Source: Haloflavibacter putidus (lineage in GTDB: Bacteria; Bacteroidota; Bacteroidia; Flavobacteriales; Flavobacteriaceae). From it: a stretch of DNA of 64,000 nt. The DNA lies in assembly GCF_006546625.1 (NCBI RefSeq), contig NZ_VIAR01000004.1, positions 62,001-126,000 on the forward strand, written 5' to 3'. The notes below the pieces were generated by a model. It had not been told where the DNA came from. It saw nothing but the letters and a program-made list of their open reading frames with translations, and did no database searches. This document shows, piece after piece, positions 1 to 60,579 of this stretch (positions within the stretch are counted from its first letter, which is position 1; every line of letters begins with the position of its first letter). Made by a program: the position numbers and the translations under genes.

Positions 1-513
1 TTTAAGCACTTTTCCGGTTTTATATTCTACTTTTCTTAAACTAGATTTACCGTGCTGCCCGGTACTTTCGTATAAAGTATCTTTATAAAACTCTAAACCT
101 TGGGTAAAAGCCTCATTATCGTGCGGATAAGAATTTATAATTTCGTAACCGTAAACAATAGGTTTGGTTTTGCTGTGCAGGCTTATGTTTTTGTTAATTT
201 CAATTTGAGTATCCTCAAAATAAACAGAGGCTTTTAAAATATTGTTACCAAATGGCTTTTCTAGGTTTACGGAAATTGGCTCATTTTTAATGCTTTTTGC
301 CAATTTATTATTGCCATAAGAGTATACAACAGAATCTATTTGATAATCTTTCTTGCTTTTTACGGAAAGTTTTAAGGCATCTCCCTTCTGTAATGGACCT
401 TTTTTACTATCCGTTTTTAAGATAAAATTCTCTGCTGCATTCTTTGTGTTCTTTCCGCAGGAAAGCAATAAAATGCTTAAACAGAAGAAAACCAATACCT
501 TATATTTTTTCAT
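1..513 (-). CDS. Glutaminyl-peptide cyclotransferase, C-terminally cut by the window edge
   Basis: Reading from the ATG complement at 511-513 the protein begins MKKYKVLVFFCLSILLLSCG, a lipoprotein signal peptide with a lipobox ending LLSC. About 110 residues later comes the block NSYPHDNEAFTQGLEF followed by LYESTGQHGKSSLRKVEY, which is the hallmark start of the bacterial glutamine cyclotransferase beta-propeller family. Such enzymes convert N-terminal glutamine to pyroglutamate on exported proteins. Only the first 171 codons lie inside the window; the propeller continues beyond base 1. The lipobox places it in the envelope, probably anchored by lipid. It is divergent from the SRP RNA gene. 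Family assignment is from motif recognition; activity is inferred. Confidence 0.85.
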   Translation of the reverse strand, partial: MKKYKVLVFFCLSILLLSCGKNTKNAAENFILKTDSKKGPLQKGDALKLSVKSKKDYQIDSVVYSYGNNKLAKSIKNEPISVNLEKPFGNNILKASVYFEDTQIEINKNISLHSKTKPIVYGYEIINSYPHDNEAFTQGLEFYKDTLYESTGQHGKSSLRKVEYKTGKVLK

Positions 514-566
514 AAAAATAAAATTTTTAAAAAAAGCTAATTTAGGTAATTCTATTTAAAAAATAC

Positions 567-596
567 TTGTAAAAATAGATAAACATTGTATATTTG
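567..596 (+). promoter_or_regulatory. Bacteroidota-type promoter for the SRP RNA
   Basis: A TTG at 567-569 and the box TATATTTG at 589-596 match the Bacteroidota sigma-A consensus (TTTG, about 19 bases, TAnnTTTG). The mature RNA begins at about 601, so this site gives an internal ruler: transcription starts some 4-5 bases after the final G of the box. Confidence 0.75.
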
Positions 597-600
597 CAGC

Positions 601-694
601 GGCAAGTCCCACACAACCAGCTCCTGCTGAATCCCCCAGGGCGGGAACGCAGCAAGGGTAAGCGGTCGTAGCGGTGTGATGTGGGTAGCTTGCC
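601..694 (+). ncRNA. ffs: Signal recognition particle RNA, small bacterial type
   Basis: The sequence starts GGCAAGTCCCACACAACCAG and ends GTGGGTAGCTTGCC, so the two ends pair into the closing stem of the 4.5S-type RNA. The internal segment CAGGGCGGGAACGCAGCAAG and the following GGTAAGCGGTCG form the conserved domain IV helix with its asymmetric loop bound by Ffh. The RNA guides ribosomes making membrane and secreted proteins to the Sec machinery. At about 94 nucleotides it is the small type lacking the Alu domain, as usual in Bacteroidota. A T-rich tract follows at 695-700 and may end the transcript. Confidence 0.95.
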
Positions 695-786
695 ATTTTT
701 TATTCCCTATATTTTCCTTTTATTTTTTATTGGTTAGTCGGTATTTTACATAGAAAAAGTAGATATTTGCCACAGAAATTTACTAA

Positions 787-1593
787 ATGAATCAAGAAGT
801 AGTACTCATTACCGGAGCTTCTTCGGGAATAGGAAAAGCTATTGGCAATTTTTTATACCAAAAAGGCTATAAAGTGTACGGCACTAGTAGAAATCCCAAA
901 CAAAAAGAGCAAGACGGTATTTGTTTTGTTGCCTTAGATGTAACTAAAAAAGAAAGCATTCTTACCGCCGTAGAAGAGGTGCTTAAAGCCGAAGGAAAAA
1001 TAGATTTTCTTATTAATAATGCCGGAATGGGCATTACCGGACCTTTAGAAGAAACCCCCGATGAAGAAATTCAAAAAGTTTTTGATACCAATTATTTTGG
1101 CGTTTTACGGGTAATTAAAGCGGTTTTACCGTCTATGCGGAAAAGAAAAACGGGTTTTATAATTAATATCACATCTATTGCCGGTTATATGGGCTTGCCG
1201 TATCGTGGCATTTACTCCGCCACCAAAGGCGCTTTAGAGCTTACCACCGAAGCTTACCGAATGGAGCTGAAAGAATTCAACATAAAAATGACCAATATTG
1301 CACCAGGCGATTTTGCCACTAATATTGCTGCCGGTAGGTATCACGCTCCTGTAAAAGAAGCTTCTCCCTATGCCAAAAACTACAAACGCACGTTAGAATT
1401 GATGGATGAGCACGTAGATAAGGGAAAAGATCCTATTATTATGGCTCAAAAAGTCTATGCCGTAATGCAGGAAGATAATCCAACTATTCATTATAAAGTA
1501 GGAGAGTGGTTGCAAAAATTCAGTATAGCATTAAAACACATTTTGCCAGATAAATGGTATGAGAAAATGCTAATGAAACATTATAAACTGTAA
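787..1593 (+). CDS. SDR family NAD(P)-dependent oxidoreductase
   Basis: A 268-residue classical short-chain dehydrogenase/reductase. The cofactor loop TGASSGIG is at residues 9-16, NNAG at 77-80, catalytic Ser130, and the YSATK active site (Tyr143, Lys147). The Rossmann fold occupies roughly residues 4-190; the remaining C-terminal part is substrate-specific. SDRs of this shape oxidise or reduce alcohols, ketones or sugars, but the substrate cannot be read from the sequence. It lies between the SRP RNA and the transaldolase-family gene, which has its own promoter box overlapping this stop codon, so the two may be transcribed separately. The ATG start is well placed directly before the first beta strand. 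Confidence 0.9.
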   Translation: MNQEVVLITGASSGIGKAIGNFLYQKGYKVYGTSRNPKQKEQDGICFVALDVTKKESILTAVEEVLKAEGKIDFLINNAGMGITGPLEETPDEEIQKVFDTNYFGVLRVIKAVLPSMRKRKTGFIINITSIAGYMGLPYRGIYSATKGALELTTEAYRMELKEFNIKMTNIAPGDFATNIAAGRYHAPVKEASPYAKNYKRTLELMDEHVDKGKDPIIMAQKVYAVMQEDNPTIHYKVGEWLQKFSIALKHILPDKWYEKMLMKHYKL

Positions 1594-1598
1594 CTTTG
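1591..1598 (+). promoter_or_regulatory. Candidate promoter box for the transaldolase-family gene
   Basis: TAACTTTG fits TAnnTTTG and overlaps the stop codon of the SDR gene. It would give a leader of about 25 bases before the ATG at 1628. No clear TTG is seen at the -33 position, so this is a moderate call. Confidence 0.45.
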
Positions 1599-1627
1599 TA
1601 AACAAGAAAAAATAAAATCAACACAAC

Positions 1628-2284
1628 ATGAAATTTTTTATAGACACAGCTAATTTAGAGCAGATTAAAGAAGCACAAGATTTAGGCGTTTTAGACGGCG
1701 TTACCACAAACCCTTCTTTAATGGCAAAAGAAGGTATTACCGGAAGAGACAATATTATCAAACATTATAAAGACATTTGCGAGATTGTAGATGGCGATGT
1801 GAGCGCAGAAGTTATTGCTACCAATTATGACGATATTATAAAAGAAGGAGAAGAATTGGCCGCTTTGCACGAGCAAATTGTCGTAAAAGTCCCCATGATA
1901 AAAGACGGCATAAAAGCCATAAAATATTTTAGCGATAACGGTATAAAAACCAATTGTACTTTAGTGTTTTCTGCAGGACAAGCTTTGTTGGCAGCAAAGG
2001 CCGGCGCAACTTACGTATCGCCATTTATTGGTAGATTAGATGATATTTCTACAGATGGGTTAAATTTAATTGCAGAAATACGCGGTATTTATGACAATTA
2101 TGGTTTTGAAACCGAAATTCTTGCAGCTTCTATTCGCCATACAATGCACGTAATAGATTGTGCTAAAATTGGCGCAGATGTTATGACAGGACCATTATCT
2201 TCTATAGATGGCTTACTAAAACACCCTTTAACCGATATTGGTTTAGAGAAATTTTTAGCAGATTATAAAAAAGGAAATAAATAG
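1628..2284 (+). CDS. fsa: Fructose-6-phosphate aldolase / small transaldolase
   Basis: A 218-residue protein beginning [20 protein letters not shown], with the TTNPSL motif at 26-31 and the Schiff-base lysine in VVKVPM (Lys87). These are diagnostic of the short transaldolase subfamily (TalC/FSA type), TIM barrels of about 215-220 residues, so it is full length. It is expected to be cytosolic and to act either as a pentose-phosphate-pathway transaldolase or as an aldolase cleaving fructose 6-phosphate; sequence alone does not separate these. In Bacteroidota this small form may be the main transaldolase, which is an inference. A strong terminator follows 18 bases after the stop. Confidence 0.9.
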
Positions 2285-2302
2285 TTTTTTTACATTATAA
2301 TT

Positions 2303-2340
2303 TAATTAAAAAGCCTTCTGTATAGAGGGCTTTTTAATTA
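2303..2340. terminator. Bidirectional intrinsic terminator
   Basis: The 13-base arms TAATTAAAAAGCC (2303-2315) and GGCTTTTTAATTA (2328-2340) are perfectly complementary and extend inward with a further four pairs to a GTAT loop. It sits between converging genes and has T-runs on both strands, so it should serve the transaldolase gene and the thioredoxin-fold lipoprotein gene. Confidence 0.85.
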
Positions 2341-2399
2341 CGGTAATTTAAGATCAATATATCTTGATAAAAGAAAGAAAACTACTACTAAGATTCTTT

Positions 2400-3815
2400 T
2401 TACATGTTTAAAAACTGTAAAATATAATCTTCCAGATTAGAGTCGTCCAGTTGTAACCTACCATCTTTAATAATAGAATTGCCGTTAACAAAAAGAATGT
2501 TGTTTAGGTAATTTCTATAAAGTGGTTTTTTGTTGCCTACATCAACAATTTGATATTCAAACTCTTCGTGGTAGTCAAAATTCTCTATTGTTTTTTGCCA
2601 AAGTTCGGTTTCTCCGGCATCTATATTTATTCCTATAAAGGCTATTTCCGGATATTTGTTTCGTAACTTATTTATAATAGCGTGTTGACGCTTGTGTTGT
2701 TCTCCAGAGTAAATAGACCAGTAAAATAAAACCTTGGGTTTGTCGCTAATGTTTTTAAAAGCTACTTTCTCTAACGTGTTGTCTAATATAGTTTTATTAG
2801 AAATATCATGACCGGTTAAAAAAGAGCTTTGTATTTCGGCTAAGTCTCGTAGTTTTTGCTTGTTTTCGGCACTTAGATCAAAATCATTAATAACTTGTAA
2901 TGCCGTGTCTATATCTGCAGGTTTTTCAGAATAAATTATTTCTCTTTTTGCGAAGCTTTTTACAAATCGGTGTTTTAAATCGGGTAGACTAAAGATAGAA
3001 TCTGCCAGGCGTATTCTGCGTTGCAAATTGTTTATGCTATGTAACCGAAAACAATTTCTATCCATATTGTTTTCCAAACAATAATCTATCGACTTATTTT
3101 TAAGAAAATTATCCAAAAAACGTCTATAAATATAATGCCCTTGCAAATCTTTATCGTTAAAATCTACTTGATTTCTATAAGCATAAAAACCTTCAGGAAA
3201 TTGATTTTGAAATGCTTCTACATACTTTTTTATCAAAAACGAGTAGCGTTCTAACAAACCATAAAACTCATAATCTATGGTTTTTTGTGCCAAGCTTTTA
3301 AAGCTATCAGAAAAAGTATGTTTTGTAGCCAATTGGTTTAAGCGTATTTCTCTTCGTTTTTTTATAGAGTCTGTTTTGGCAGCAAAATCACTAGGCGGTA
3401 TTTTATAATATGAAAATAACAAGTCATTATTGGCTTCGTTAAGTAAGAACATTTCCATTAAGAAATTATTTTTGGCTGCTCCTTTGCCACTATACATCAT
3501 AGATTCGTCGAACTCTAAAGTATTTAAATGCACTAAAAGGCTGTCGCCTTTTTCAATATAGAAAATTTGTGTCTCCGGTGCGTGCCTAAAAGTGTATAAT
3601 CCTTCTGCATCTTCAGAAAATTGATATGAAAATTTGTTTTTGTCGTTTAGATAAATACTATCTACAATAATATCTTGTCTTTCTAGGGTAAGTAAATCAG
3701 AAGTAGGATTAACTATCTCTCCAGAAAAATAAGTTCTTATTGGTTCACTTTCATCTTCGCAAGAAAGAAAAATAAAAGAAATACTGCTAAGAAGTACTAA
3801 AAGTGAAAATCGCAT
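2400..3815 (-). CDS. Lipoprotein with C-terminal thioredoxin fold lacking the CxxC pair
   Basis: An upstream in-frame start at 3845 exists, but the ATG at 3815 directly precedes a lipoprotein signal (MRFSLLVLLSSISFIFLSC) and is preferred, giving about 471 residues. The N-terminal 100 residues resemble the beta-rich domain found before TlpA-like thioredoxins in Bacteroidota, the middle is helical, and the last 120 residues (KPKVLFYWSIYSGEQHKRQ, then AFIGINID) follow the TlpA fold. Where TlpA has WCxxC this protein reads FYWSIYSGE, so disulfide chemistry is unlikely. It is probably an envelope binding or chaperone-like protein; the function is unknown. Confidence 0.75.
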   Translation of the reverse strand: MRFSLLVLLSSISFIFLSCEDESEPIRTYFSGEIVNPTSDLLTLERQDIIVDSIYLNDKNKFSYQFSEDAEGLYTFRHAPETQIFYIEKGDSLLVHLNTLEFDESMMYSGKGAAKNNFLMEMFLLNEANNDLLFSYYKIPPSDFAAKTDSIKKRREIRLNQLATKHTFSDSFKSLAQKTIDYEFYGLLERYSFLIKKYVEAFQNQFPEGFYAYRNQVDFNDKDLQGHYIYRRFLDNFLKNKSIDYCLENNMDRNCFRLHSINNLQRRIRLADSIFSLPDLKHRFVKSFAKREIIYSEKPADIDTALQVINDFDLSAENKQKLRDLAEIQSSFLTGHDISNKTILDNTLEKVAFKNISDKPKVLFYWSIYSGEQHKRQHAIINKLRNKYPEIAFIGINIDAGETELWQKTIENFDYHEEFEYQIVDVGNKKPLYRNYLNNILFVNGNSIIKDGRLQLDDSNLEDYILQFLNM

Positions 3816-3842
3816 AGTGGTTTTAAATAGTAGGCTCTCGCA

Positions 3843-3850
3843 CAAATATA
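3843..3850 (-). promoter_or_regulatory. Candidate promoter box for the thioredoxin-fold lipoprotein
   Basis: On the minus strand this reads TATATTTG, a perfect TAnnTTTG. Transcription would start near 3838, leaving a leader of about 23 bases to the ATG at 3815. This supports the downstream start, because the longer ORF start at 3845 overlaps the promoter box itself. Confidence 0.55.
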
Positions 3851-3934
3851 GGTGCTGAAAGATATTGCTAATGTTAACTCATCGTTAAAACCAAAACTTA
3901 AAAGTTAATCTTTCCGGAAGTAGTTTTATTTAGT

Positions 3935-3942
3935 TATTTTTG
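3935..3942 (+). promoter_or_regulatory. Candidate promoter box for the ABC-F gene
   Basis: TATTTTTG fits TAnnTTTG and would place the transcript start near 3947, some 11 bases before the ATG at 3958. No convincing TTG is present at -33. Confidence 0.5.
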
Positions 3943-3954
3943 CAAAAAATTTAG

Positions 3955-5583
<1,629 letters not shown>

Positions 5584-5597
5584 TTAGTTGGGTGCAT

Positions 5598-5690
5598 CCC
5601 TTTTTTATTTCATAAATTAAAAAGGGTCGGGTTATCCGCTATATCTTTTTTTGCTTTTAGAAGCAAAAAAAGGATGCCGCTACTACCCCT
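5598..5690. repeat. Structured intergenic element with two hairpins and CCGCTA repeats
   Basis: Downstream of the ABC-F gene, CCCTTTTT (5598-5605) pairs with AAAAAGGG (5619-5626). A second hairpin has arms CTTTTTTTGCTT (5645-5656) and AAGCAAAAAAAG (5661-5672). The second hairpin is flanked by TTATCCGCTATAT and GATGCCGCTACTACCCC, and a GGGT (5629-5632) can pair with ACCC (5685-5688). From memory this resembles an element seen after genes in several flavobacteria, but I cannot confirm it here. It may be a repeat or a structured 3' RNA. Confidence 0.4.
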
Positions 5691-5714
5691 TGCACAAAAG
5701 AAACAGTTATTTTT

Positions 5715-5750
5715 AAAAACCTTTTTGCTTAGAGTAAAAAGGTTTTTTTA
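5715..5750 (+). terminator. Intrinsic terminator
   Basis: Arms AAAAACCTTTTT (5715-5726) and AAAAAGGTTTTT (5736-5747) enclose a nine-base loop and run into T residues. It is the likely end of the ABC-F transcript, lying after the structured element. Confidence 0.7.
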
Positions 5751-5773
5751 TAATACAAAAGCTGAGAGTTAAT

Positions 5774-5810
5774 CATTAAAAAGGCCGTCGTAAACACGAC
5801 AGCCTTAATT
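5774..5810 (-). terminator. Intrinsic terminator of the membrane-protein gene
   Basis: A hairpin built on GGC-GTCGT pairing with ACGAC-GCC across an AAAC loop. Read on the minus strand it is followed by TTTTTAAT, and it lies 22 bases beyond the stop of the minus-strand gene that ends at 5832. Confidence 0.7.
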
Positions 5811-5831
5811 AAAAATAAGTTTATTAAAATT

Positions 5832-6521: not shown

Positions 6522-6708
6522 TATTCTAACTATTTATACAAAAAATTAAATATTACTTTACCTTTAAATAATTCTTTTTGACATTCCTCGATTTAAGAAA
6601 GTCTAATTTATAGAAAATTATAAAAAAACAAAAATTATATTTTAATATGGTCGGCAGTGCAATATGAAAAGGTTTTTTTATTTTTATCGGTCAAATTAAT
6701 ATTATAAA

Positions 6709-8028: not shown

Positions 8029-8044
8029 TTTAGAATTTTTTGTT

Positions 8045-8052
8045 TAAGTTTG
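8045..8052 (+). promoter_or_regulatory. Candidate promoter box for the three-repeat lipoprotein
   Basis: TAAGTTTG fits TAnnTTTG and would give a leader of about 30 bases before the ATG at 8087. There is no clear -33 element. Confidence 0.4.
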
Positions 8053-8086
8053 TGAAACCCAATTATTAATTTACTTAAACTTATTT

Positions 8087-9418: not shown

Positions 9419-9439
9419 ACGGCATTGAAAAATTTAGAG

Positions 9440-40264: not shown

Positions 40265-43200
40265 ATGAAAAGAATTACTATGCTTCTAATGGCGTTTATG
40301 TTCTGGACCTTTGGTCACGCACAGGATGCTATTATAACAGGCTATGTAGATTCCCCCTGTTCGGGTGCCGATGGTAGAACCGTCGAAATCTATGTCAACG
40401 GTACCGTTGATTTTACAGGTTGGAATCTAGTACGACAATCAAATGGTGGCGGATTTACCACCAATTTAGATCTTTCTTCCTTAGGAAGTTTAACAGATGA
40501 GTTTGCTTACCTCACTAACGATGAAGCAACATTGGATGCAGAATTTTCAATCAACTCTACCAATGATAACGTCATAGAAAATGGCGGAATCTCTAGTAAT
40601 GGTGACGATGCTTTCCAACTTGTAGATGCTTCAGACGTTGTGATAGACCGTTTTGGAGAAGACGGTGTAGATGGTTCCGGTACAGACTGGGAACACACAG
40701 ACACTTATTATTATCGTAACGATGGTGCAACTGCTAATGCGGGTGTTTTTGATGCGATTAATTGGACAATCGGTGCATTGGATGCTTTAGACGGTCAAGG
40801 TACTTGTAATGGCGAAGCAGCTTTAAGCACAATTGTTCCTCTTGGCAGTTATACGCCAAATCTATCTTCGTCGGGAGAAACTTGTGCAAACCCTATTGCT
40901 ATTACTGGTTTGCCTTATACCACTTCAGACGATACAGCCAATTATGGTAACAATTATGATAATGGCGACAGTCCCTGTACGGCTTATTATTTAAATGGAG
41001 ATGATGTAATCTATGCATATACCCCTGCAGCAGACATAATAGTTAATTTCTCTTTAACAAATCTTGGCTCTAGTTGGTCTGCAATACATGTATTAGATGC
41101 TTGTTTAGATAGCTCTCCCAATTGTGTAGCTTTTGAAGGGAATTCGAATTCGAACGATCGTTTTTTAGAAGGGGTGATGCTAACTGGAGGAACCACCTAT
41201 TTTATTGTGATTTCAACTTGGGCTGCGCCGCAATCGACAACATACGATTTAAATATCGAAGAGGTAACTTGTCCTAAAATTACAGATGTTGTGGTAAATA
41301 ATGTAACCTCATCTTCTGCCGATATTTCTTGGACGGAAAATGGTTCTGCCACAGAGTGGGAAATTCTTTACGGAGAAGAAGGATTTGATCCGACTACCGA
41401 GGGTACGAGCGTTACGGATAATGATGGTACTTTAGGGGAAACTTTAAGCGGGTTAAATGTTGATACAACTTATGATGTTTATGTGCGTGCAAATTGTGGT
41501 TCGGGAGATTTAAGTGACTGGACTGGTCCAGTAGAGTTCCAAACAGATTGTGCTGTATATGTACCAGATTATTCAGAAGATTTTGCTAACTTTTTACCAG
41601 ATTGCTGGAGAGAAGCAGGTAGTGGTTTACCGGCAGACGGGCCGTCAGATTTGGGAACCGGGGCCTGGTTCTCTGATGAGTTTCTAAATACTGGCTCAAA
41701 CAATGCTGCTACAATAAACTTATACACAACAGGCAGAGAAGAGTGGTTAATCTCTCCATCCTTTGATTTATCTGCTGATTCGTATGAATTAGTGTACAAA
41801 ACTGCCGTTACGAATTACTCAAGTTCAGCTCCTTCCGATATGGGATCAGACGATGAAGTACAATTGCTTATATCAGAAGATAATGGGGTAACTTGGTCTA
41901 ATTTAATGACTTATGATGCTTCTAATACTCCTTCGGCTACTGGCCAAGAAGAAATAGTAGATTTAAGTGCATATTCTGGTACTGTAAAACTTGCATTTTG
42001 GGCAACAGATGGTACAGTTGACGATACAGAAGACTACGATTTTTTTGTAGATGATTTTAAAGTAAGGGTTCCGCCATCTTGTTTAGCACCATCAGATATT
42101 GTAATAGATAATATAACCGCAGATTCTGCTAATATTTCTTGGACAGCTAACGGTTCCGAAACCGAATGGGAAATCCTTTACGGGGAAACTGGCTTTGATC
42201 CGGTAACAGAAGGTACTAGTGTAACAGATGACGATGGCACTTTAGGAGAGACTTTAAGCGGATTGATGGAGGCTACAGAATACGATGTTTATGTACGTGC
42301 AGTATGCGCACCTGGAAACGAAAGTGAATGGGTAGGTCCGATAACTTTTGAGACAGAGTGTGCTATTTTTACCGCACCTTTCACAGAAGATTTTGAAACC
42401 TCTATGGATGCAACACCAGATTGCTGGAGTAATACGAGTTCTACCTCTAAAATTTGGGAGTTTGATACAGAACCCACTTTTGGTAACGATTATGCAGATC
42501 ATACAACCGGGAGCGGTTATTTAGCTTTCGTAGATGCATCAACCACTACTACCACGCCAGACGCTACTTTGGCAACGCCTTTTATAGACGTTTCTGCTTT
42601 AACAACACCATATCTAGAATTTTATGTTTATCATTTTGCAAATGATGGCGATTCTAATAAAATAACCTTAGAAGTTTGGGATGGCGCAGCTTGGAATGAA
42701 GTGTATATGGATGATAATGGCGATGTAGATGCTTGGGAAAAAGTTGGTATATCACTAGAAGGCTTAACCATCACAGGGCCTATTCAAGTTAGGTTTATTG
42801 TAGATACCGTAATTGGTGATAATTATGAAAATGATATCGCTATAGATGATGTAAGCGTTAAGGAGGCACCTTCTTGTTTTAGTCCATCAAGTTTGGCCGT
42901 AAGTAATATAACAGATACTTCAGCAGACCTTATGTGGACAGAAAATGGTTCTGCAACAGAATGGGAAATCCTTTATGGAGAAGCTGGTTTTGATCCTGCC
43001 ACAGAAGGAACCAGCGTTATGGATGATGACGGCACTTTAGGTATAACTTTAAATGGGTTGTCAAGCGCTACAGAATACGACGTATACGTTCGTGCAATTT
43101 GTGCGCCTGGTGATGAAAGTGAGGGGACAGGTCCAATTGCTTTTGAAACCGAATGTGCAGTATACGTGCCAGATTACTTAGAAGATTTCACTACATTCTT

Positions 43201-49945: not shown

Positions 49946-52306
49946 ATGTATAAAACTACAATTCTCTCTCTTCTATTTTTTTGTGTTACTTCTATAGGAC
50001 TGGCACAAATAGATCTAAATGAAAACTTTAACGAAAATAACGCGATACCAGCAGATTGGTCTACTAATGGTGAATTTGCAAGCACGCCGGTAGCTACTTG
50101 CGAAGGAAATTCTTTACGTGATAATCTATGGACTAATAGTACTTTAGGATACTTGTATACACCAAATCTTCAAAATCAATCTACTGGCACAATAGTAGAG
50201 ATTAATTTTGATTATAAAATTGTAGACTATATTTCTTCCGGACTTCCAAATCAACCAACACAGCCAGGATGGGGTAATATGAAAATTGCCTACACGATAG
50301 ATGGAGGAAATAACTGGATAAACATTCATACCATAAATGACTCTAATCACACCACTTCCAACACTTGCGCTAATGTAAATTTAACCATTCCTGAAGGTGA
50401 TGTTCCCTCAGGAAGTGATTTTCAATTGCGCTTTGAAACCAATTGGAACAGTGGCGATTTTTATATTTATATTGATAATGTATCCATTATTCAAGACGTT
50501 ACTACTCCACCCAATTGCGATCTAACCTTGATAAACCCTACAGAGGGCGTGACTAATGCTTCCACAGATGGTAATATAAGCTGGACTCCTGCAAGTGGTG
50601 GGGTTATTGGTTACGAATTAAACGTAGGGACAACTTCTGGAGGAACCAATGTTGTAGAAAATGTAATTTTAAATAGCGGCGAGACTTCTTATAGTTTAGG
50701 GCAATTGGTTGAAACTACTACGTATTACGTTCAAATAACGCCTTATAATAATATTGGACAAGCTAGTGGCTGCTCAGAATTTAGTTTTACCACAACAAAT
50801 TTACCGGCAAACGATGCTTGTTCTAATGCTATTCAGGTTTATGGTCCTAATTATACCAATACCCAAGATGCATCTAATGCAACCAATAATGATGGTTTCA
50901 TTAATTCTAGCTGTGGAGATATGAACGATGGGGTTTGGTATACTTTTATCGGAGACGGTGGCCAAGTTACCATAACACTGGAAGAAAATACTAATTGGAA
51001 TGCTGCACTTGGTATTTATACCGGAGAATGTTCTGTTTTATTATGTGAGACGGTAGAAGAAACCACAGGCGGAAACTTAAGTGTTTCTTTTGAAAGCGTT
51101 TTAGGCACAACTTATTATTTAAACGTAGGAAACCAAAGTGGAACAACAGATAATCCTGAAGGAGAGTTTACTATCACCTACGAAAGTATTGTTAACCCTT
51201 GTCCAGAACCAAGCAATTTAATGATTAATAACGTAACCCACGAATCTGCTGATGTATCTTGGATAGAAAATGGCGATGCCGTGGAGTGGAATGTAGAATA
51301 TGGCGAACAAGGCTTTACGCCAGGAAGCGGTACCGTAATTTATGATGACGATGCAACTCCAGATACAACACTTATAAATTTAGAAGAAAACACTACTTAT
51401 GATGTTTATGTAAGTTCATTTTGTCCGCCAGATGCAGAAAGTGATCCTATTGGTCCGGTAAGTTTCACCACCTTAGTAAATCCGCAACCTTGTGCACAAC
51501 CCTCTAATATAATTGTAGCTATAGAAGATCCGCAAACGGCAGAAGTTACTTGGACAGAAAATGGCAACTCAACAGAATGGGAAATCCTTTACGGAACAAT
51601 AGGGTTTGATCCGGATACAGAAGGAGATTTAATAGTTAACGATAGTGGCACACCATCGCAAACATTAAACAGTCTAACACCATCAAGTTCTTATGATGTT
51701 TACGTTCGTGCAGTTTGTGAGAATGAAACCACAGATTGGACAGGTCCGGAAACTTTTACTATGCCATCCAGTATTTGTGCAGATCCTTCAGATATTGTAG
51801 TGCAAGAGCTTACCAACTCGAGTGTTCAAGTTACGTGGACAGAAAATGGTTCTGCAAACGAGTGGAAAGTAGAATATGGCCTTAGCGGATTTGATCCGGA
51901 GACAGAAGGAACCACTTTAATAGACGACAATGGAGAACTAGGAGTAAGCATAACTGGCTTACAGGAAGATCAAGCCTATGACGTTTACGTTACTGCCATT
52001 TGCGGCGATGCAGAAAGCGAGAGAATTGGTCCAAAAACTTTTACCATAGAATTGATTGGGGTAGAAAATACCAATTTTGCAAACTTTACAATGTATCCTA
52101 ACCCGGCAAAGCAATTTGTAAACTTTAAAGCAGAAGAAAAAATAGAAACTATTACACTATTTGACCTTAAAGGTAGAGTAATAAAAACTAAAAACATGCG
52201 TGCTAAAGAAGCTAGGTTAAACGTACAAGATTTGGCAGCCGGTATTTATTTAGTGAAAATTAGAATAAAAGATAAAACAAAAACCCTTAAATTTATAAAA
52301 GAGTAA
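49946..52306 (+). CDS. T9SS-exported FN3 protein, third of three
   Basis: A 786-residue protein: signal peptide (MYKTTILSLLFFCVTSIGLA), an N-terminal jelly roll (about 20-185, LRFETNWNSGDFYIYIDNVS), an FN3-like domain, a PPC-like domain (LPANDACSNAIQVYGPNYTN), three FN3 domains with WIENGDAVEWNVEYGEQGF and WTENGNSTEWEILYGTIGF cores, and a T9SS type A sorting domain from about 706 (MYPNPAKQFVNFKA to LKFIKE). No catalytic motif is seen. It appears to have its own transcription unit, closed by the inverted-repeat element at 52326. Confidence 0.85.
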   Translation: MYKTTILSLLFFCVTSIGLAQIDLNENFNENNAIPADWSTNGEFASTPVATCEGNSLRDNLWTNSTLGYLYTPNLQNQSTGTIVEINFDYKIVDYISSGLPNQPTQPGWGNMKIAYTIDGGNNWINIHTINDSNHTTSNTCANVNLTIPEGDVPSGSDFQLRFETNWNSGDFYIYIDNVSIIQDVTTPPNCDLTLINPTEGVTNASTDGNISWTPASGGVIGYELNVGTTSGGTNVVENVILNSGETSYSLGQLVETTTYYVQITPYNNIGQASGCSEFSFTTTNLPANDACSNAIQVYGPNYTNTQDASNATNNDGFINSSCGDMNDGVWYTFIGDGGQVTITLEENTNWNAALGIYTGECSVLLCETVEETTGGNLSVSFESVLGTTYYLNVGNQSGTTDNPEGEFTITYESIVNPCPEPSNLMINNVTHESADVSWIENGDAVEWNVEYGEQGFTPGSGTVIYDDDATPDTTLINLEENTTYDVYVSSFCPPDAESDPIGPVSFTTLVNPQPCAQPSNIIVAIEDPQTAEVTWTENGNSTEWEILYGTIGFDPDTEGDLIVNDSGTPSQTLNSLTPSSSYDVYVRAVCENETTDWTGPETFTMPSSICADPSDIVVQELTNSSVQVTWTENGSANEWKVEYGLSGFDPETEGTTLIDDNGELGVSITGLQEDQAYDVYVTAICGDAESERIGPKTFTIELIGVENTNFANFTMYPNPAKQFVNFKAEEKIETITLFDLKGRVIKTKNMRAKEARLNVQDLAAGIYLVKIRIKDKTKTLKFIKE

Positions 52307-52325
52307 CTTATATCTTTTAACAATA

Positions 52326-52449: not shown

Positions 52450-52463
52450 CTTTTTTGAATGCC

Positions 52464-52471: not shown

Positions 52472-52479
52472 CGCGTTAG

Positions 52480-53472: not shown

Positions 53473-53475
53473 TAA

Positions 53476-54432: not shown

Positions 54433-55019
54433 TAGTAGTAGGACTTACAGGAGGCATAGGAAGCGGAAAAACTACCGTAGCCAATTTTTTTGAGGCCTTG
54501 GGCGTACCAATTTATATTGCAGATGATGCGGCAAAAAATCTAATGGAAAGCTCTTCTAAAATCCGTAAAGAAATTATTGAATTACTGGGAGAAGAAGCTT
54601 ATACAGAGAATTTACCTAATAGAAAATGGATAGCAAAACAGGTTTTTACAAACGAGGCGTTACTAAATAAATTAAACCAAATAATACATCCGCGTGTAAA
54701 AACTCATTTTAAAATTTGGGCAGAAAATCAACAAGCAAATTATGTATTGTACGAGGCTGCTATTTTATTTGAGAAAGGAGGCTATAAAGATACAGATTAC
54801 AATATTTTGGTGGTAGCTCCCAAAGAAGAAAGAGTAAAACGTCTGCAAAAAAGAGACAATAGTGCAAAAGAAGATATAGAAGCTCGCATGCAAAACCAAT
54901 GGGATGACCAAAAGAAAATAAAACTTGCAGATTTTATTATAGAGAATATACATAAAGCCGATACAAAAACGCAGGTTAAGCGACTTCACGAAACGCTCTC
55001 AGGTATTGCTAATGCTTAA
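54429..55019 (+). CDS. coaE: Dephospho-CoA kinase
   Basis: A 196-residue P-loop kinase, IVVGLTGGIGSGKTTVANFF, with the dephospho-CoA lid region PIYIADDAAK and a C-terminal helix. It phosphorylates dephospho-CoA in the last step of CoA synthesis, complementing coaBC at 35.4 kb. It overlaps the YbbR-like gene by 4 bases. Confidence 0.94.
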   Translation: MIVVGLTGGIGSGKTTVANFFEALGVPIYIADDAAKNLMESSSKIRKEIIELLGEEAYTENLPNRKWIAKQVFTNEALLNKLNQIIHPRVKTHFKIWAENQQANYVLYEAAILFEKGGYKDTDYNILVVAPKEERVKRLQKRDNSAKEDIEARMQNQWDDQKKIKLADFIIENIHKADTKTQVKRLHETLSGIANA

Positions 55020-55074
55020 ACTCCGCTTATGTTAACATTTGGTTAAACCGTTTAAAATCTAAATGTTAAAATCT

Positions 55075-55082
55075 TACTTTTG
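55075..55082 (+). promoter_or_regulatory. Promoter box giving a near-leaderless histidine-kinase transcript
   Basis: TACTTTTG is a perfect TAnnTTTG and ends 6 bases before the ATG at 55088. With the SRP RNA spacing the transcript would begin essentially at the start codon. Confidence 0.5.
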
Positions 55083-55087
55083 GGCAC

Positions 55088-56650
55088 ATGAACAAGAAGT
55101 TATTCTTACTCTTAATATCCTTAATGAGCCTATCATTAATAGGAATAATCTTTGTGCAGGGCTACTGGATTAAAAATACTGTCGAAACAAACGAAGAACA
55201 GTTTTCGTTTAACGCACGACAAGTATTGCTTAATGTAGTAGAACAAGTTGAGCAACAAGAGTTAGATAAATATTATGTGCAGTATGCAACCTTAGCAGAC
55301 TCAGAAAAGCCCACTAGTTCTAGACTTAGTGAGTTGTTTCAAATTAAACAAGACGAGCTTACTAACGAAACTTTTTTCTACTCTAACAGCATTTTGCAGG
55401 AAGATTATAAACTTTCTTCGCAATTTTTAAATAGAGATAAAGATAGCATAGATTTTAAAAAGCTTATTAATCAAAAAGTAACCAGAATTGTTAGAAATGA
55501 CGAAATAGATGGTGAAATAGAATTGAGTGCCGAAGAGAAATTTAAGCGTATTTCACGCCTAGAAGAAAATGAAAAGTTTTTACTTTTGGAAGCTATTCGA
55601 GAAAAAGCAGCACAGCTTCCGGTATATAAACGCGTTAATGTAGATTATTTAGAAGCTTTAATTGAAGCTCAACTTAGCGCCAGAGATATAAAATCTGATT
55701 TTGAATTTGCCATTTTTGATGAAAATTTGGCCACCAAAGTAAAAACAGAAGATTTTAAAAAAGACAGTCCGGCAACCTATGGTACGCCAATTTTTGAGTC
55801 GCCCAATACTAATTATAAGTTCTTGATAAACTTTACAGGTAAAAAGCGCGAAGTACTCTCGTCTATAGCTTTAATGGCTTTACTGAGTATAATTTTTACT
55901 TTAATAATTATCATAGCCTATTACAGCGCTTTATCACAGTTGATAAAGCAGCGACAAATTTCGCAAATTAAAACAGATTTTATAAATAATATGACACACG
56001 AGTTTAAGACGCCAATAGCAACAATAAACCTGGCTCTAGACTCTGTTAAAAACCCTAAGATAGCTAACGACCCAGATAAAATAAAACGCTATATGGGTAT
56101 GATTAGAGACGAAAATAGAAGAATGCACGCACAAGTAGAAAACGTGTTGCGCATTTCAAAATTAGAAAAAAATGAACTAAACATAAAAAAAGAACGATTG
56201 TTGCTACATGAGTTAATAGAAGAGGCTATCCCCCATGTAGAGCTCATTATAGACAATAAAGAAGGTTATGTGCAAACCCATTTTGGCGCATTAAAATCTT
56301 CTATTTTAGCAAACGAAACACATTTTACTAATGTAATTGTAAACATTTTAGAAAACGCAATAAAATACTCACCCGATAAACCCAAAATAGATATTTATAC
56401 CGAAAATGTAAAGAATTATATTATTATGAAAATTCGGGATCAAGGAAAAGGGATGAGCAAGGTAGTTCAAAAGAAAGTTTTTGATAAATTTTATAGAGAA
56501 CATACCGGTAACATTCACGATGTAAAAGGTCACGGTTTGGGGCTTGCCTACGTAAAACAAATTGTAGAAGACCACCACGGCCAAGTAAGCGTTGAGAGTG
56601 AAAAAGGAAAAGGGAGCACATTTATTATTAAATTACCACTAATATCATAA
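55088..56650 (+). CDS. Sensor histidine kinase
   Basis: A 520-residue kinase with two membrane helices (about 5-27 and 258-282) flanking a periplasmic sensor of roughly 230 residues. The H-box is FINNMTHEFKTPIATINLAL with phospho-acceptor His304. The ATPase domain has NILENAIKYS, IRDQGKGMS and GHGLGLAYVK. There is no HAMP domain between the second helix and the H-box. It phosphorylates the response regulator encoded 3 bases downstream. The pair resembles RprX/RprY of Bacteroides. Confidence 0.92.
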   Translation: MNKKLFLLLISLMSLSLIGIIFVQGYWIKNTVETNEEQFSFNARQVLLNVVEQVEQQELDKYYVQYATLADSEKPTSSRLSELFQIKQDELTNETFFYSNSILQEDYKLSSQFLNRDKDSIDFKKLINQKVTRIVRNDEIDGEIELSAEEKFKRISRLEENEKFLLLEAIREKAAQLPVYKRVNVDYLEALIEAQLSARDIKSDFEFAIFDENLATKVKTEDFKKDSPATYGTPIFESPNTNYKFLINFTGKKREVLSSIALMALLSIIFTLIIIIAYYSALSQLIKQRQISQIKTDFINNMTHEFKTPIATINLALDSVKNPKIANDPDKIKRYMGMIRDENRRMHAQVENVLRISKLEKNELNIKKERLLLHELIEEAIPHVELIIDNKEGYVQTHFGALKSSILANETHFTNVIVNILENAIKYSPDKPKIDIYTENVKNYIIMKIRDQGKGMSKVVQKKVFDKFYREHTGNIHDVKGHGLGLAYVKQIVEDHHGQVSVESEKGKGSTFIIKLPLIS

Positions 56651-56653
56651 CAT

Positions 56654-57370
56654 ATGGAAACTGAAAACAAAAAAATCTTATTAGTAGAAGACGATCCAAA
56701 TTTCGGAATCGTTTTAAAAGATTATTTAGCGATGAACGACTATGAAGTTACACACGCTAAAAATGGAATGGAAGGCTTTGAAAAGTTTAAAAAAGACGAT
56801 TTTGATCTTTGCATTCTAGACGTAATGATGCCGTACAAAGACGGTTTTACACTAGCCAAAGAAATAAGAGAAAAGAACGAAGAAATTCCTATTATTTTCC
56901 TTACGGCAAAGGCAATGAAAGAAGACGTGCTAAAAGGCTATAAAGTAGGAGCAGACGATTATCTAAACAAGCCTTTTGATAGCGAAGTGCTTTTAATGAA
57001 AATTAAAGCAATAATGCAACGCAAAGCTACAGATAGTATTGCAGATAGTAAGCAATTTGAGTTTAATATTGGTAACTTTCACCTAAACTCTAAACTGCGT
57101 TTCTTAACTTTTAAAGATGAAGAACCTGCAAAACTATCGCCAAAAGAAAATGAGTTGTTGCGTTTATTGGCTTTGCACGAAAACGATTTAATGCCAAGAG
57201 AATTGGCGCTTACCAAAATCTGGAGAGACGATAACTATTTTACCTCTAGAAGTATGGATGTTTATATTGCCAAACTACGAAAGTACTTGAAAAAAGACGA
57301 AAATGTAGAAATTCTAAATATTCACGGAGAAGGATTTAGATTGGTAATAAGAAATAAAGAAGAAGAATAG
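56654..57370 (+). CDS. OmpR-family response regulator
   Basis: A 238-residue protein. The receiver has LLVEDDPNFG and the phospho-acceptor Asp56 in CILDVMMP, then FLTAKAMK and the lysine in LNKPFD. The C-terminal winged helix has SPKENELLRLLALHENDLMP and SMDVYIAKLRKYLK. It is the output partner of the histidine kinase next to it. Targets are not visible here. The transcript ends at the hairpin 57411-57444. Confidence 0.93.
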   Translation: METENKKILLVEDDPNFGIVLKDYLAMNDYEVTHAKNGMEGFEKFKKDDFDLCILDVMMPYKDGFTLAKEIREKNEEIPIIFLTAKAMKEDVLKGYKVGADDYLNKPFDSEVLLMKIKAIMQRKATDSIADSKQFEFNIGNFHLNSKLRFLTFKDEEPAKLSPKENELLRLLALHENDLMPRELALTKIWRDDNYFTSRSMDVYIAKLRKYLKKDENVEILNIHGEGFRLVIRNKEEE

Positions 57371-57410
57371 TAATTTAAAATTATTGTGATTTTTCAGTTT
57401 CAAAAACTTT

Positions 57411-57444
57411 CCACGGCAAAACTATTGTCGTGGAGAGCTTTTTT
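57411..57444. terminator. Bidirectional terminator overlapping the miaA end
   Basis: CCACGGCA (57411-57418) pairs with TGTCGTGG (57426-57433) with one G-T wobble; T-runs follow on both strands. It lies between the converging response regulator and miaA genes, and its right arm sits inside the last codons of miaA. Confidence 0.75.
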
Positions 57445-58345
57445 GAAGTATATAAGCTCTAATTTCAGATATGGGTGTGTTATGAGCAAACCACTTTATC
57501 TCCTTATCTTTTCTAAACCAAGTTAACTGCCGCTTGGCAAACCTTCTTGTATTTTTTTTAATTTCTTCTACAGCTTTTTCTAAACTTAATTGCCCGTCAA
57601 GATAAAGAAAAAGCTCTTTGTAGCCAACCGTATTTAGCGCATTCCTGTCTCTGTACGCAAACATTTTTTCTGCTTCTTGCAGCAAGCCTTCTGCCATCAT
57701 TTTATCTACGCGTTGTTCTATGCGCTCATAAATTAATTCTCGTGGAGCGGTTAAGCCTATCTTTACGGAAGAAAAATCACGGGTTGGTTTTGGTTTATTT
57801 CTATAATAGGAAAAATTTTTATCTGTGCCACGACAAATTTCTAAAGCACGAATAACCCTTTGCGGATTTTGAAGATCTGCTTTTTCTGAAAATTCCGGAT
57901 CTTTAACCTTTAGTTCTTCTACTAATTCTTCCAATCCGTTTTCTTCAAAAATTTTATTTAACTCTTTACGGATGTTAGGGGAGACCGGCGGAAAATAATC
58001 TAAACCTTTCGTGACGGCGTCTACATAAAGTCCGCTTCCGCCAACTAGAAATATATGCGAATAAGTTTTAAACAAGCGCTCTAACTTCCGTAAAGCATCT
58101 TTTTCAAAATTACCAACAGAGTAGTTTTGCTCTACGGAAAGATGCTGAATAAAATGGTGTTTTACTTGCGCCAGTTCCTCTTTACTCGGCACGGCTGTAC
58201 CAATTTGCATTTCTTTATAAAACTGTCTAGAATCTGCCGAAACTATTTCCGAAGAAAAATGTTTGGCCAGTTTTATTGCAACTGCTGTTTTTCCTATAGC
58301 GGTAGGACCAACTACTGGTATTAAAAAATTACTCTTCATTTTCAT
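57422..58345 (-). CDS. miaA: tRNA dimethylallyltransferase MiaA
   Basis: A 307-residue protein (start at 58345, or the ATG six bases further in). The P-loop is GPTAIGKTAVAIKLA, then SADSRQFYKEMQIGTAVPS and VGGSGLYVDAVTKGLD, diagnostic of MiaA. It adds the dimethylallyl group to A37 of tRNAs reading U-starting codons. The start overlaps the end of the ion-transporter gene, so the two are probably cotranscribed. Confidence 0.95.
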   Translation of the reverse strand: MKMKSNFLIPVVGPTAIGKTAVAIKLAKHFSSEIVSADSRQFYKEMQIGTAVPSKEELAQVKHHFIQHLSVEQNYSVGNFEKDALRKLERLFKTYSHIFLVGGSGLYVDAVTKGLDYFPPVSPNIRKELNKIFEENGLEELVEELKVKDPEFSEKADLQNPQRVIRALEICRGTDKNFSYYRNKPKPTRDFSSVKIGLTAPRELIYERIEQRVDKMMAEGLLQEAEKMFAYRDRNALNTVGYKELFLYLDGQLSLEKAVEEIKKNTRRFAKRQLTWFRKDKEIKWFAHNTPISEIRAYILQKSSPRQ

Positions 58346-59165
58346 TATGCAAATCGTATCCGCAATGGTGGCAATATTTTGCTTTGTCTAAATGCTCTTT
58401 TTCGTTGCAATTATAACAAGATTGCGTGTTGTTTATTTCGGGATTACTGCGTCTAGAATATTCTGCGCTTACAATACCGGTGGGTACAGCTATAATTCCG
58501 TAACCCATAATCATAATTGCACTTGCCAAAAACCTGCCTAAAGGCGTAATGGGGTGAATGTCTCCAAAACCAACGGTGGTTAAGGTTACAATCGTCCAAT
58601 AAACTCCCATTGGTATGCTGGTAAAACCGCCTTCTTCACCTTCTATAAGATACATCATTGTGCCGGCAATTAAAGACAAGACCATAACGGCAAATAGAAA
58701 GACAAGAATTTTTGGACGGCTGTGAGCCAAAGCTTTTTTTAATCTGTTGCCTTCTCCTATATAGCGCGTAATTTTTAAAATTCTGAAAATTCTAAGTAAG
58801 CGTAAAGATCTGAAAGTTAATAAAGCCGCACTTCCTGCAAAGAAAAAAGAGAGATAAAGCGGTATAGTAGAAAGAAAATCTATAATACCGTAAAAGCTAA
58901 AAATGTATCTTTTGGGGCGCTTAATACAGATAATCCTGGCAATATATTCTAGGGTAAAAAGTATGGTTACAACCCATTCACCATAAAGTAAATACGTGTA
59001 TACCCAAGGGTCTAGACCTCTTACGCTTTCTAGCATCACGAAAATTACGCTTAAGAAGATAAAGACGAGTAAAACTATATCAAATAGTTTTCCTGCCGGG
59101 GTTTCTGCTTCATAAATTACTTCGTGCAGCCGTTCACGCCAAGATAAAGTAGATTTGTTTTTCAA
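58329..59165 (-). CDS. Voltage-gated-type ion transporter with C-terminal zinc ribbon
   Basis: A 278-residue six-helix channel subunit. The S4-like helix is FRSLRLLRIFRILKITR with basic residues every third position (Arg119 to Arg134), the pore loop carries the potassium filter TVGFGD (197-202) and the S6 helix follows. The C-terminal tail has Cys250, Cys253, Cys265 and Cys268 (CYNC and CHHC), a zinc-ribbon-like module. It conducts potassium across the inner membrane; the tail might regulate or scaffold the tetramer. Confidence 0.88.
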   Translation of the reverse strand: MKNKSTLSWRERLHEVIYEAETPAGKLFDIVLLVFIFLSVIFVMLESVRGLDPWVYTYLLYGEWVVTILFTLEYIARIICIKRPKRYIFSFYGIIDFLSTIPLYLSFFFAGSAALLTFRSLRLLRIFRILKITRYIGEGNRLKKALAHSRPKILVFLFAVMVLSLIAGTMMYLIEGEEGGFTSIPMGVYWTIVTLTTVGFGDIHPITPLGRFLASAIMIMGYGIIAVPTGIVSAEYSRRSNPEINNTQSCYNCNEKEHLDKAKYCHHCGYDLHNENEE

Positions 59166-59217
59166 TAGATTACAGTTTTAGTAAAAGTACTTAATTTGTA
59201 GGAAATTAAAAAAATCT

Positions 59218-60579
59218 TTAAAATTTGACTATTCTAAGCGGTTTGTTTTTACGCAGGTAATTTTGAATTATATGTTGCGAATCGCGATTACTTTTCATGG
59301 GGGTAATTATATTTTTAACCAACTCTATAGTTGCTATTTGATGGTTAAGATTAAAATAGCCCATGCCTTTAAAGTAACCATTTTCTATAAGGAGAACACT
59401 TTTTTCGTCATAATCCCGACCTCTATCTATAATGAGCATGTTTTTGTCTTTAAAACTATATTTGTCTATTAAGGCTTGTACGCGTTTATTATAATCGGCA
59501 GGAGATTCTTCTTGAATGCAAGCGCCGCTACATTTTTTTATTCCATAATTAAAACACGCCGAAGGGGTTTGGTGCAAGCCACATAATTTTAGACAGAGTT
59601 CCAATTCTTCTACCATTTTATGTAGCCAATTTTTTGCCTGGTCAACATTGGTAAAGGTCGTTATAGGCTGCTTTTGGGCATTAGCTTCTGCAATTTTAAG
59701 TTGTAGATAACCAGCTTCGTTTTTTTCGTGATAAAGGGCGTAGTTAAAAATATCTTTCCGTAAAGCCCGATTATAGATTGGTTTAATTTTTTTTATCTCT
59801 TCGTTTTCTTTCAGTAAAGCTAAAACCTCTACTCCGGTGGCTTCATAAGTAACCGCACTTATTTCTTGCTGAATTTTCTTAGATTTGGGATTGGTATTGG
59901 TAAAATGTTGGGTAAGTCTCTTTTTTATATTTTTGCTTTTACCAACGTAAATAACTTCGCCATTATCGTTGTGCATATAATACACGCCGGTAATTGGCGG
60001 CAATTCTTCTAAAATACGAATTAACTTAGCGTCTAACTGCGTTTTTGGTTTATTCTTTACGGAGGCTGCAATAATTTCTTTTTGCGAATCTTTTTGTAAC
60101 AGCAATTTAAACAATTTTACCGTGGCCAAAGCATCGCCACTTGCGCGGTGTCTGTCTGTTATTGGTATACCCAAATTTTTAACCAATTTGCCTAAACTGT
60201 AGGATGGCATACCGGGCAATAATTTTTTAGACAATTCTACCGTACAAAGCGATTGCCGCTTATATTCGTAACCTAATCTTTGGTATTCTAAACGCAGAAT
60301 CCTGTAATCAAATTTGGCGTTATGCGCAATTAGAACACAGTTGTTGGTAATTTCTATAATGCGTTTTGCTAGTTCGTAAAACTTAGGTGCGTTACGAAGC
60401 ATATCATTATTTATACCGGTTAAACCCACTACAAAAGGTTGTATGGGTCTTTCTGGGTTTACAAGACTTATAAATTGGTCTGTAACTTCTCTTCCGTTGT
60501 ATTTATATATTGCAATTTCGGTAATACCTTCTTGGTTAAATTTACCGCCCGTTGTTTCTATATCTACTATTGCATACAA
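59218..60579 (-). CDS. DEDDh exonuclease fused to GIY-YIG nuclease domain
   Basis: A 453-residue fusion. The exonuclease domain (about 1-165) has Asp6 and Glu8 (VDIETTGG), AHNAKFDYR and the His144/Asp149 pair (HRASGDA), as in DnaQ. The second domain (about 195-280) has GVYYM, YVGKSKNIKKRL and is of the UvrC/Cho GIY-YIG type. A cysteine-containing segment follows (LCLKLCGLHQ and CSGACIQEE), like the UvrC cysteine region. It probably nicks and trims damaged or structured DNA. It is a known combination in bacteria; the exact pathway is uncertain. Confidence 0.9.
   Translation of the reverse strand: MYAIVDIETTGGKFNQEGITEIAIYKYNGREVTDQFISLVNPERPIQPFVVGLTGINNDMLRNAPKFYELAKRIIEITNNCVLIAHNAKFDYRILRLEYQRLGYEYKRQSLCTVELSKKLLPGMPSYSLGKLVKNLGIPITDRHRASGDALATVKLFKLLLQKDSQKEIIAASVKNKPKTQLDAKLIRILEELPPITGVYYMHNDNGEVIYVGKSKNIKKRLTQHFTNTNPKSKKIQQEISAVTYEATGVEVLALLKENEEIKKIKPIYNRALRKDIFNYALYHEKNEAGYLQLKIAEANAQKQPITTFTNVDQAKNWLHKMVEELELCLKLCGLHQTPSACFNYGIKKCSGACIQEESPADYNKRVQALIDKYSFKDKNMLIIDRGRDYDEKSVLLIENGYFKGMGYFNLNHQIATIELVKNIITPMKSNRDSQHIIQNYLRKNKPLRIVKF

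Follow-up and report, generated by a model that had tools for sequence, protein, structure and literature searches.

The stretch of DNA considered here, hereafter the window, comprises 64,000 nucleotides (C44:62001-126000) of genome G000, a 2.92-Mb draft in 53 contigs. The host genus is called Mesonia (Flavobacteriaceae) by inference, and the DnaA of this genome is 92% identical to that of M. oceanica. The genome carries a ten-base word, CTTTACGGAA, in large excess, and this word is probably a DNA uptake sequence (DUS), a self-recognition word of the same type as the uptake signal sequence (USS), of this Mesonia lineage. This reading is favoured because of the enrichment of the word, its strand balance, its occurrence in all stop-free reading frames, the letter-perfect conservation of its copies, the dialects that follow the LigA phylogeny and the presence of competence-type genes. 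The initial annotation of the window had proposed four candidates for a shorter form of the word, TTTACGGAA, namely an uptake-like word, a recombination hotspot, a methylation- or restriction-linked site and a nucleoid-protein site; the first of these is now strongly favoured, and the recombination and nucleoid-protein sites have become less likely.

The window contains 27 copies of TTTACGGAA, 17 on the plus and 10 on the minus strand. All 26 coordinates reported by the initial annotation are exact, and one more copy was found at 51588 on the plus strand. The preceding base is C in 22 of the 27 copies, as it is in 21 of the 26 listed before. The over-representation claimed earlier stands, but the expectation of fewer than one copy was slightly too low, since 100 dinucleotide shuffles of the window gave a mean of 1.30 and a maximum of 6. 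The two commonest 9-mers of the window are CTTTACGGA (29 copies) and TTTACGGAA (27), both above every A/T-rich word, while the commonest 10-mer is CTTTACGGAA with 22 copies, and the core of the word is CTTTACGGAA.

Words were counted in the whole of G000, and the same letters read backwards were counted identically as a reversed control. TTTACGGAA is present in 953 copies (493 forward and 460 reverse; control 72, 30/42) and CTTTACGGAA in 746 copies (376 forward and 370 reverse; control 8, 4/4), which corresponds to about one copy of the latter per 3.9 kb. Further analyses used a 463-kb sample made of the window and 20 other stretches (18% of the genome), which holds 110 copies of CTTTACGGAA against Markov expectations of 2.3 (order-2) and 2.65 (order-3). 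All the 10-mers listed above CTTTACGGAA by z-score derive from the repeat unit of a single CRISPR-type array. This array, at L014:14833-18128 near the end of contig C1 of G000, contains 43 copies of TCAATCGCACCTCATTGGAA, with the first 12 spacings being 65-68 bases.

The number of copies per stretch is Poisson-like (mean 4.4, variance 4.7 over the 20 stretches), and a regular spacing of the word was rejected, the gaps in the sample being random (coefficient of variation 0.98) and unclustered. The flanks of CTTTACGGAA are nearly featureless and mutually unrelated, with weak preferences for a purine after the word and for T-rich sequence before it. Both strands are used in 17 of the 20 sampled pieces that have copies (the window and 19 stretches), the one-sided pieces being L012 (2:0), L014 (0:2) and L026 (0:6). 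The strong polarity along replichores typical of FtsK-orienting polar sequences (KOPS) or FtsK recognition sequences (FRS) is not seen in the sampled pieces, in line with the initial argument against a polar KOPS-like motif. The word is not palindromic and is therefore not an iterated palindrome of the type of highly iterated palindrome 1 (HIP1). The sole stretch of the 20 without any CTTTACGGAA is L016 (G000:C2:20001-40000); its larger open reading frames (ORFs) appear by eye to be accessory-like (hydrolases, hypothetical proteins), which would suit recently acquired, word-free DNA.

An origin of the word in codon usage, a common peptide or a repeat family is highly improbable. Coding DNA was defined by simple ORF calls with a minimum of 100 codons. 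By this definition 79 of the 110 sampled copies are coding and 31 are noncoding, although noncoding DNA makes up 15.2% of the bases (P = 4.6e-4). When synonymous codons were permuted within each gene, so that the proteins and codon usage were retained, CTTTACGGAA appeared on average 2.9 times (maximum 7, 200 shuffles) or 2.7 times (300 shuffles), as opposed to the 79 coding copies observed. The enrichment extends to all five stop-free frames, the observed and shuffled counts being 9/0.26, 14/0.30 and 31/1.81 for the sense frames and 3/0.19, 0/0 and 22/0.17 for the antisense frames. The empty antisense frame would contain TAA, and its closure by this stop codon is one ordinary reason that in part explains the sense excess of 54:25.

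The copy at 51588 does lie within a peptide repeat family, and the sense frame encoding FTE is the commonest of all (31 of 79), as would be expected of a peptide-driven word. However, the shuffles preserve both peptides and codon usage, the flanks are unrelated and 31 of the 110 copies are noncoding, and this explanation is refuted for the bulk of the copies. The Markov and codon-shuffle backgrounds proposed in the initial annotation, run here on the 463-kb sample, thus leave the observed count far above both; codon use is insufficient as an explanation, as had been argued, and the alternative of a common peptide or repeat family raised there does not account for the count.

The nearest genome among those searched is G005, with a LigA identity of 96% and a window DNA identity of 89.2% over 60.8 kb. 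Twenty of the 22 window copies of CTTTACGGAA are identical in G005, compared with 36.8% of neighbouring 10-mers (binomial P = 2e-7). Third codon positions are identical between G000 and G005 in 74 of 76 cases within the words versus 14301 of 18658 (76.6%) elsewhere (P = 8e-7), and in 415 of 536 cases in the 40-base flanks of the words. Since the copies and the silent positions inside them are far better conserved than the surroundings, it is the DNA word itself that is maintained. Eight aligned copies are unique to one genome, six to G005 and two to G000; the counterpart in the other genome differs from the word by a single base in every case. The copies arise and vanish by point mutation, not by insertion, and are held against drift. 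The comparison with close relatives that had been suggested was thus carried out with G005, G003, G006 and G008, showing gain and loss by single bases relative to G005; aligned window copies are common to the distant members in 1 of 12 (G003), 0 of 9 (G006) and 0 of 14 cases (G008).

A tolerance profile was derived by counting words with one mismatch, the perfect copies being masked from the background. The excess of such words is 4- to 10-fold at positions 4, 5, 6 and 10, 2.5- to 3.5-fold at positions 1, 3 and 7 and 1.7-fold at position 2, with no excess at positions 8 (2 versus 8.5 expected) and 9 (2 versus 5.2). As a control, the one-mismatch neighbours of the reversed word are near expectation (57 versus 48). 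The profile resembles graded recognition, strict in the core, more than simple decay.

The genus set comprises 16 genomes (G000-G015), joined by G016, a putative Zobellia, as an outside member to give 17 in all; G013, the contigs used from which measured 1-2 kb, was left out of the comparison of sampled sequences among congeners. The counts of CTTTACGGAA, with the reversed control in parentheses, are 804 (14) in G005, 746 (8) in G000, 263 (18) in G015, 255 (5) in G003, 70 (16) in G001, 70 (15) in G006, 69 (14) in G012, 27 (8) in G007, 18 (7) in G008, 17 (18) in G002, 11 (13) in G014, 9 (11) in G009, 7 (8) in G011, 5 (10) in G004, 5 (8) in G013 and 4 (9) in G010. Seven of the 16 members are rich in the word, G007 and perhaps G008 are slightly raised and seven are at or below the control; eight members are without clear enrichment. 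In G001, G006 and G012 another spelling, CTTTACGGAT, exceeds CTTTACGGAA (169, 154 and 162 copies, respectively; controls 9-12); it is found 102 times in G005, 97 in G000, 61 in G015, 37 in G003, 29 in G007 and 2-12 times in the others. A third spelling, CTTGACGGAA, is present in 80 copies in G003, 57 in G015, 41 in G007, 25 in G005, 15 in G000 and 3-11 in the others, and the samples of G003 and G015 additionally show CTTAACGGAA and CTTAGCGGAA.

The three spelling groups coincide with clades of a LigA protein tree (support 97/97, 100/100 and 100/99), a single-gene tree of 15 of the 16 genus members and Zobellia from which G014 was left out on account of a split LigA match. All word-bearing members together with G007 fall on one side of a weak branch (75/89) of this tree. 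The dialect changes affect positions 4, 5 and 10, which are tolerant in the G000 profile, and none affects the intolerant positions 8 and 9. Words within two mismatches show no overall excess in the word-free samples, either in G008 (256 versus 260) or in G002, G004, G009, G010, G011 and G014 pooled (380 versus 385). The sample of G008 (L165-L168) is abundant in dispersed repeats of the type CACTTCGACA(G/A)GCTCAGTGTGACA. Outside the genus no strong enrichment of CTTTACGGAA was found: among the 299 family genomes drawn, none stands out except the three Mesonia, and the next highest counts (control) are 59 (29) in G151, 56 (16) in G333 and 46 (21) in G114. The 80 named loci around dnaA, two of them from Mesonia, contain 0-1 copies of CTTTACGGAA each.

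As a DNA uptake sequence, the word would act through competent cells that bind and import double-stranded DNA bearing it better than other DNA. Imported alleles with the word would replace those without it, and copies would build up on both strands via point mutation and biased uptake, with lost copies being restored. Import would follow the route across the outer membrane, independent of pili, that genetics has revealed in Riemerella and that is made up of a CarboxypepD_reg barrel and a DUF5689-DUF5017 surface protein, an HHH periplasmic protein, ComEC and DprA. Competence and preferential uptake in the host lineage are what we infer from these genomic features.

A report on a mutant screen in R. 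anatipestifer lists as essential the DUF5689-DUF5017 protein, the adjacent CarboxypepD_reg outer-membrane protein, HHH, DUF1343, ComEC, DprA, ComF and RecA, and describes transformation in Riemerella as pilus-free (PMC8459023). ComEC and DprA are each found in 17 of the 17 genomes (16 genus members and Zobellia), as are a 289-308-amino-acid frame with two HHH_3 matches and a DUF5689 ORF preceded directly, on the same strand, by an ORF of 909-985 amino acids. The Pfam domains of this large upstream ORF were checked in G000 only, where the pair consists of a 929-amino-acid protein (CarboxypepD_reg and a sub-threshold plug match) followed by a 448-amino-acid DUF5689-DUF5017 protein. In a PDB sequence search, the C-terminal part of the DUF5689 protein matched a DUF4955 protein (E 7e-5), and a gingipain came up at E 0.43. 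These candidate genes match the architecture of Riemerella, and we infer their orthology from domains and adjacency. The barrel/DUF5689 pair of G000 is adjoined by a divergent gene (L225:5597-6658) for a PF19580 endonuclease/exonuclease/phosphatase family protein with a signal-peptide-like start, a possible DNA-processing partner.

Several observations weigh against an uptake function. PF00437, the ATPase of type IV pili and type II secretion, is above the cut-off in four of the 17 genomes (G002, G012, G013 and G014) and not in G000 or G005, unlike in the pilus-based systems of Neisseria and Haemophilus. The presence of the candidate genes is not discriminating, because they are also found in congeners without the word. 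The barrel/DUF5689 pair forms at least two lineages which follow neither the presence of the word nor its dialect: G004, a genome without the word, sits loosely beside the A and G dialects, G002 and G009 stand apart, and the T dialect, like G007, clusters with the word-poor G008, G010, G011, G013 and G014. Inverted pairs of CTTTACGGAA are not clearly enriched, with two within 70 bases among the 110 sampled copies versus about 0.9 expected. Finally, 66 of the 110 copies lie on the G-rich strand of their stretch (P = 0.045; strand assigned by the GC skew of each stretch, in a draft genome without a placed origin), and this weak excess could hint at a Chi-like role.

A type IV pilus reader was rejected for G000, as it has no PF00437 match over the cut-off, and therefore no ComP-like pilin reader is expected. 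The DUF5689/barrel pair as the sole determinant of specificity is not supported either, since its lineages do not track the word; the word would be read either by another protein or through a few residues.

Chi sites are over-represented short oligonucleotides of 5-8 bases which occur in coding and noncoding DNA. In a Chi-like hotspot one strand of the word would be read by a RecBCD/AddAB-type helicase-nuclease, which then switches to recombination. The Mesonia word is similarly over-represented in coding and noncoding DNA, and its slight bias towards the locally G-rich strand would be consistent with such a role. However, the noncoding copies show no clear polarity (17 of 31 on the G-rich strand, 17:14), and within genes the closed antisense frame favours sense copies. 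At ten bases and with an excess of 40- to 50-fold, the word is also longer and more strongly enriched than the Chi sites known to us. It is not clearly enriched in eight of the 16 congeners and is respelled in others, a faster change than a core repair enzyme would lead us to expect, and a Chi-like hotspot is unlikely.

The position-specific tolerance resembles protein-DNA specificity, and together with the random, unclustered spread it would agree with a clade-specific chromosomal site bound inside the cell by a nucleoid protein, a segregation protein or some other DNA-binding protein. Such a site is nevertheless quite unlikely, with 79 of 110 copies inside ORFs and in all stop-free frames and with both strands used within most stretches, contrary to polar KOPS-type use; moreover, we know of few binding-site systems that respell their site within one genus. 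It is distinctly improbable that the word is linked to methylation or restriction and owes its abundance to an epigenetic system or to self-recognition of a kind other than a sequence-only uptake word, as restriction sites are usually avoided in genomes and not accumulated. A methylated uptake site is conceivable by analogy with Campylobacter jejuni, the uptake of which depends on methylated DNA according to one report (PMC7965970).

An uptake sequence, the preferred reading, can be compared with known systems. The DUS of Neisseriaceae have dialects and an indispensable short core (PMC3630211), and in Neisseria they are conserved above their surroundings, 97% versus about 85% (PMC2397512). The Mesonia word is likewise short, present in very many copies and better conserved than its surroundings, with dialects that follow phylogeny and a strict core. 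It differs in being unrelated in sequence, in belonging to another phylum and a host without a type IV pilus ATPase over the cut-off, and in the lack of a clear enrichment of inverted pairs, which in Neisseria are often terminators. The USS of Pasteurellaceae originate by mutation and not by copying, have subclade-specific spellings and are accompanied by competence genes in all members (PMC1626085). The Mesonia word is similar in the excess of its short core, its mutational origin, its subclade spellings and the competence-type genes throughout; unlike the USS, it has only weak flanking preferences in place of strong AT-rich repeats, half of the genus is without clear enrichment, and in G000 there is about one copy per 3.9 kb.

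In Riemerella, which belongs to the Flavobacteriales, a preference for its own DNA is reported for R. columbina, and A/T-rich words are the commonest in a published k-mer list evaluated against base composition only (PMC7965970, Table 3). The Mesonia CarboxypepD_reg barrel adjoining the DUF5689-DUF5017 protein, HHH, ComEC and DprA are likened to those of Riemerella by domains and adjacency. The literature searches turned up no proven uptake word for Riemerella.

Many Flavobacteriaceae genera outside Mesonia show a different word, TCTTCGGAA, which among the 299 genomes is strongly over-represented and strand-balanced in G315, G027, G280, G100, G278, G077, G022 and others. In G315 it reaches 537/510 copies, compared with 21/21 of the reversed control, and the coding copies in samples number 25 in G027 (2.6 after codon shuffling) and 21 in G315 (1.1); four genomes were sampled for it, the contigs of G100 and G022 being too short for use. 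In both of these samples the word belongs to a near-palindromic class, CTTCNGAA; TCTTCGGAA probably represents a different phenomenon and was not used as support. Possibly it is another iterated word, and a tie to CTTTACGGAA via the common CTT..CGGAA is speculative. In two Dokdonia loci of about 21 kb each, the palindrome CTTTCGCGAAAG recurs four times (L055) and three times (L063), and in both loci no other 9-mers with four or more G+C are as common as those inside it.

The copies in the window are collected in Table 1. The inverted pair 9585/9615 sits between converging ORFs of at least 150 amino acids, and both of its copies are perfect in G005. An RNA hairpin at this pair is not significant (z -1.15; 24 of 200 shuffles fold as well), and a terminator role of the word was rejected, given the few inverted pairs and a hairpin barely better than shuffles. 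Three large secreted-type genes with fibronectin-III-like repeats (domain names by eye) occupy window:40265-52306. The repeats encoding EILYG..GFDP carry CTTTACGGAG, GGGG or GGAA, which explains the copy at 51588 and several near-matches, and CTTTACGGAG or CTTTACGGGG from similar peptide repeats occur at 41367, 42177, 45360 and 46941. Its location within such a repeat means that the copy at 51588 is possibly in part peptide-driven.

Table 1. Copies of the word in the window, with their strand and particulars
Word	Position	Strand	Remark
GTTTACGGAA	265..274	+	one mismatch; G005 has CTTTACGGAA
TTTTACGGAA	358..367	+	one mismatch; G005 has CTTTACGGAA
GTTTACGGAA	9585..9594	-	one mismatch; inverted pair with 9615 copy
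CTTTACGGAA	9615..9624	+	outside called ORFs
CTTTACGGAA	11306..11315	-	
CTTTACGGAA	12317..12326	+	G005 has CTTTACAGAA
CTTTACGGAA	12563..12572	+	
CTTTACGGAA	12707..12716	+	
CTTTACGGAA	13619..13628	-	
CTTTACGGAA	15511..15520	+	copy also at aligned place in G003
CTTTACGGAA	17284..17293	-	within dnaA
CTTTACGGAA	19994..20003	-	
ATTTACGGAA	22623..22632	+	one mismatch
CTTTACGGAA	23993..24002	+	
CTTTACGGAA	32001..32010	+	G005 has TTTTACGGAA
CTTTACGGAA	33053..33062	+	
CTTTACGGAA	33666..33675	+	
CTTTACGGAA	35634..35643	+	
CTTTACGGAA	35979..35988	-	
CTTTACGGAA	36180..36189	-	
CTTTACGGAA	37582..37591	+	outside called ORFs
CTTTACGGAA	51587..51596	+	in EILYG peptide repeat; absent from the initial list
CTTTACGGAA	53979..53988	-	
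ATTTACGGAA	54159..54168	+	one mismatch
CTTTACGGAA	57761..57770	+	
CTTTACGGAA	58086..58095	-	
CTTTACGGAA	59756..59765	-	

To our knowledge, word-specific DNA uptake has so far been confined to Neisseriaceae and Pasteurellaceae, both of which use type IV pili, and we know of no earlier uptake sequence in Bacteroidota. Literature searches with the exact word and with the concept, which covered no bioRxiv preprints and few subscription papers, returned no report of this word or of a Bacteroidota uptake word, and the publications that hold the letters of the word concern, among the matches listed, unrelated subjects. A broader proposal, to which we would give not quite an even chance, is that Bacteroidota own uptake sequences of which the 10-bp dialect word of Mesonia is one, read by a pilus-free outer-membrane importer and representing a third independent origin and the first without type IV pili. 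The importer in this proposal would be the TonB-receptor-like barrel with the DUF5689 surface protein, or a partner.

If the uptake function is true, an element of a known kind would be found in a phylum where it is new and in a host that lacks the customary uptake pilus. Such a third lineage, bearing the genomic signature but not that pilus, would show repeated evolution of uptake words that does not depend on the machinery. The word might explain self-preference in flavobacterial transformation and could give a handle on the outer-membrane DNA reader of Bacteroidota, with the genus offering presence, respelling and lack of the word for comparison. The prediction is that one added 10-bp word should raise uptake.

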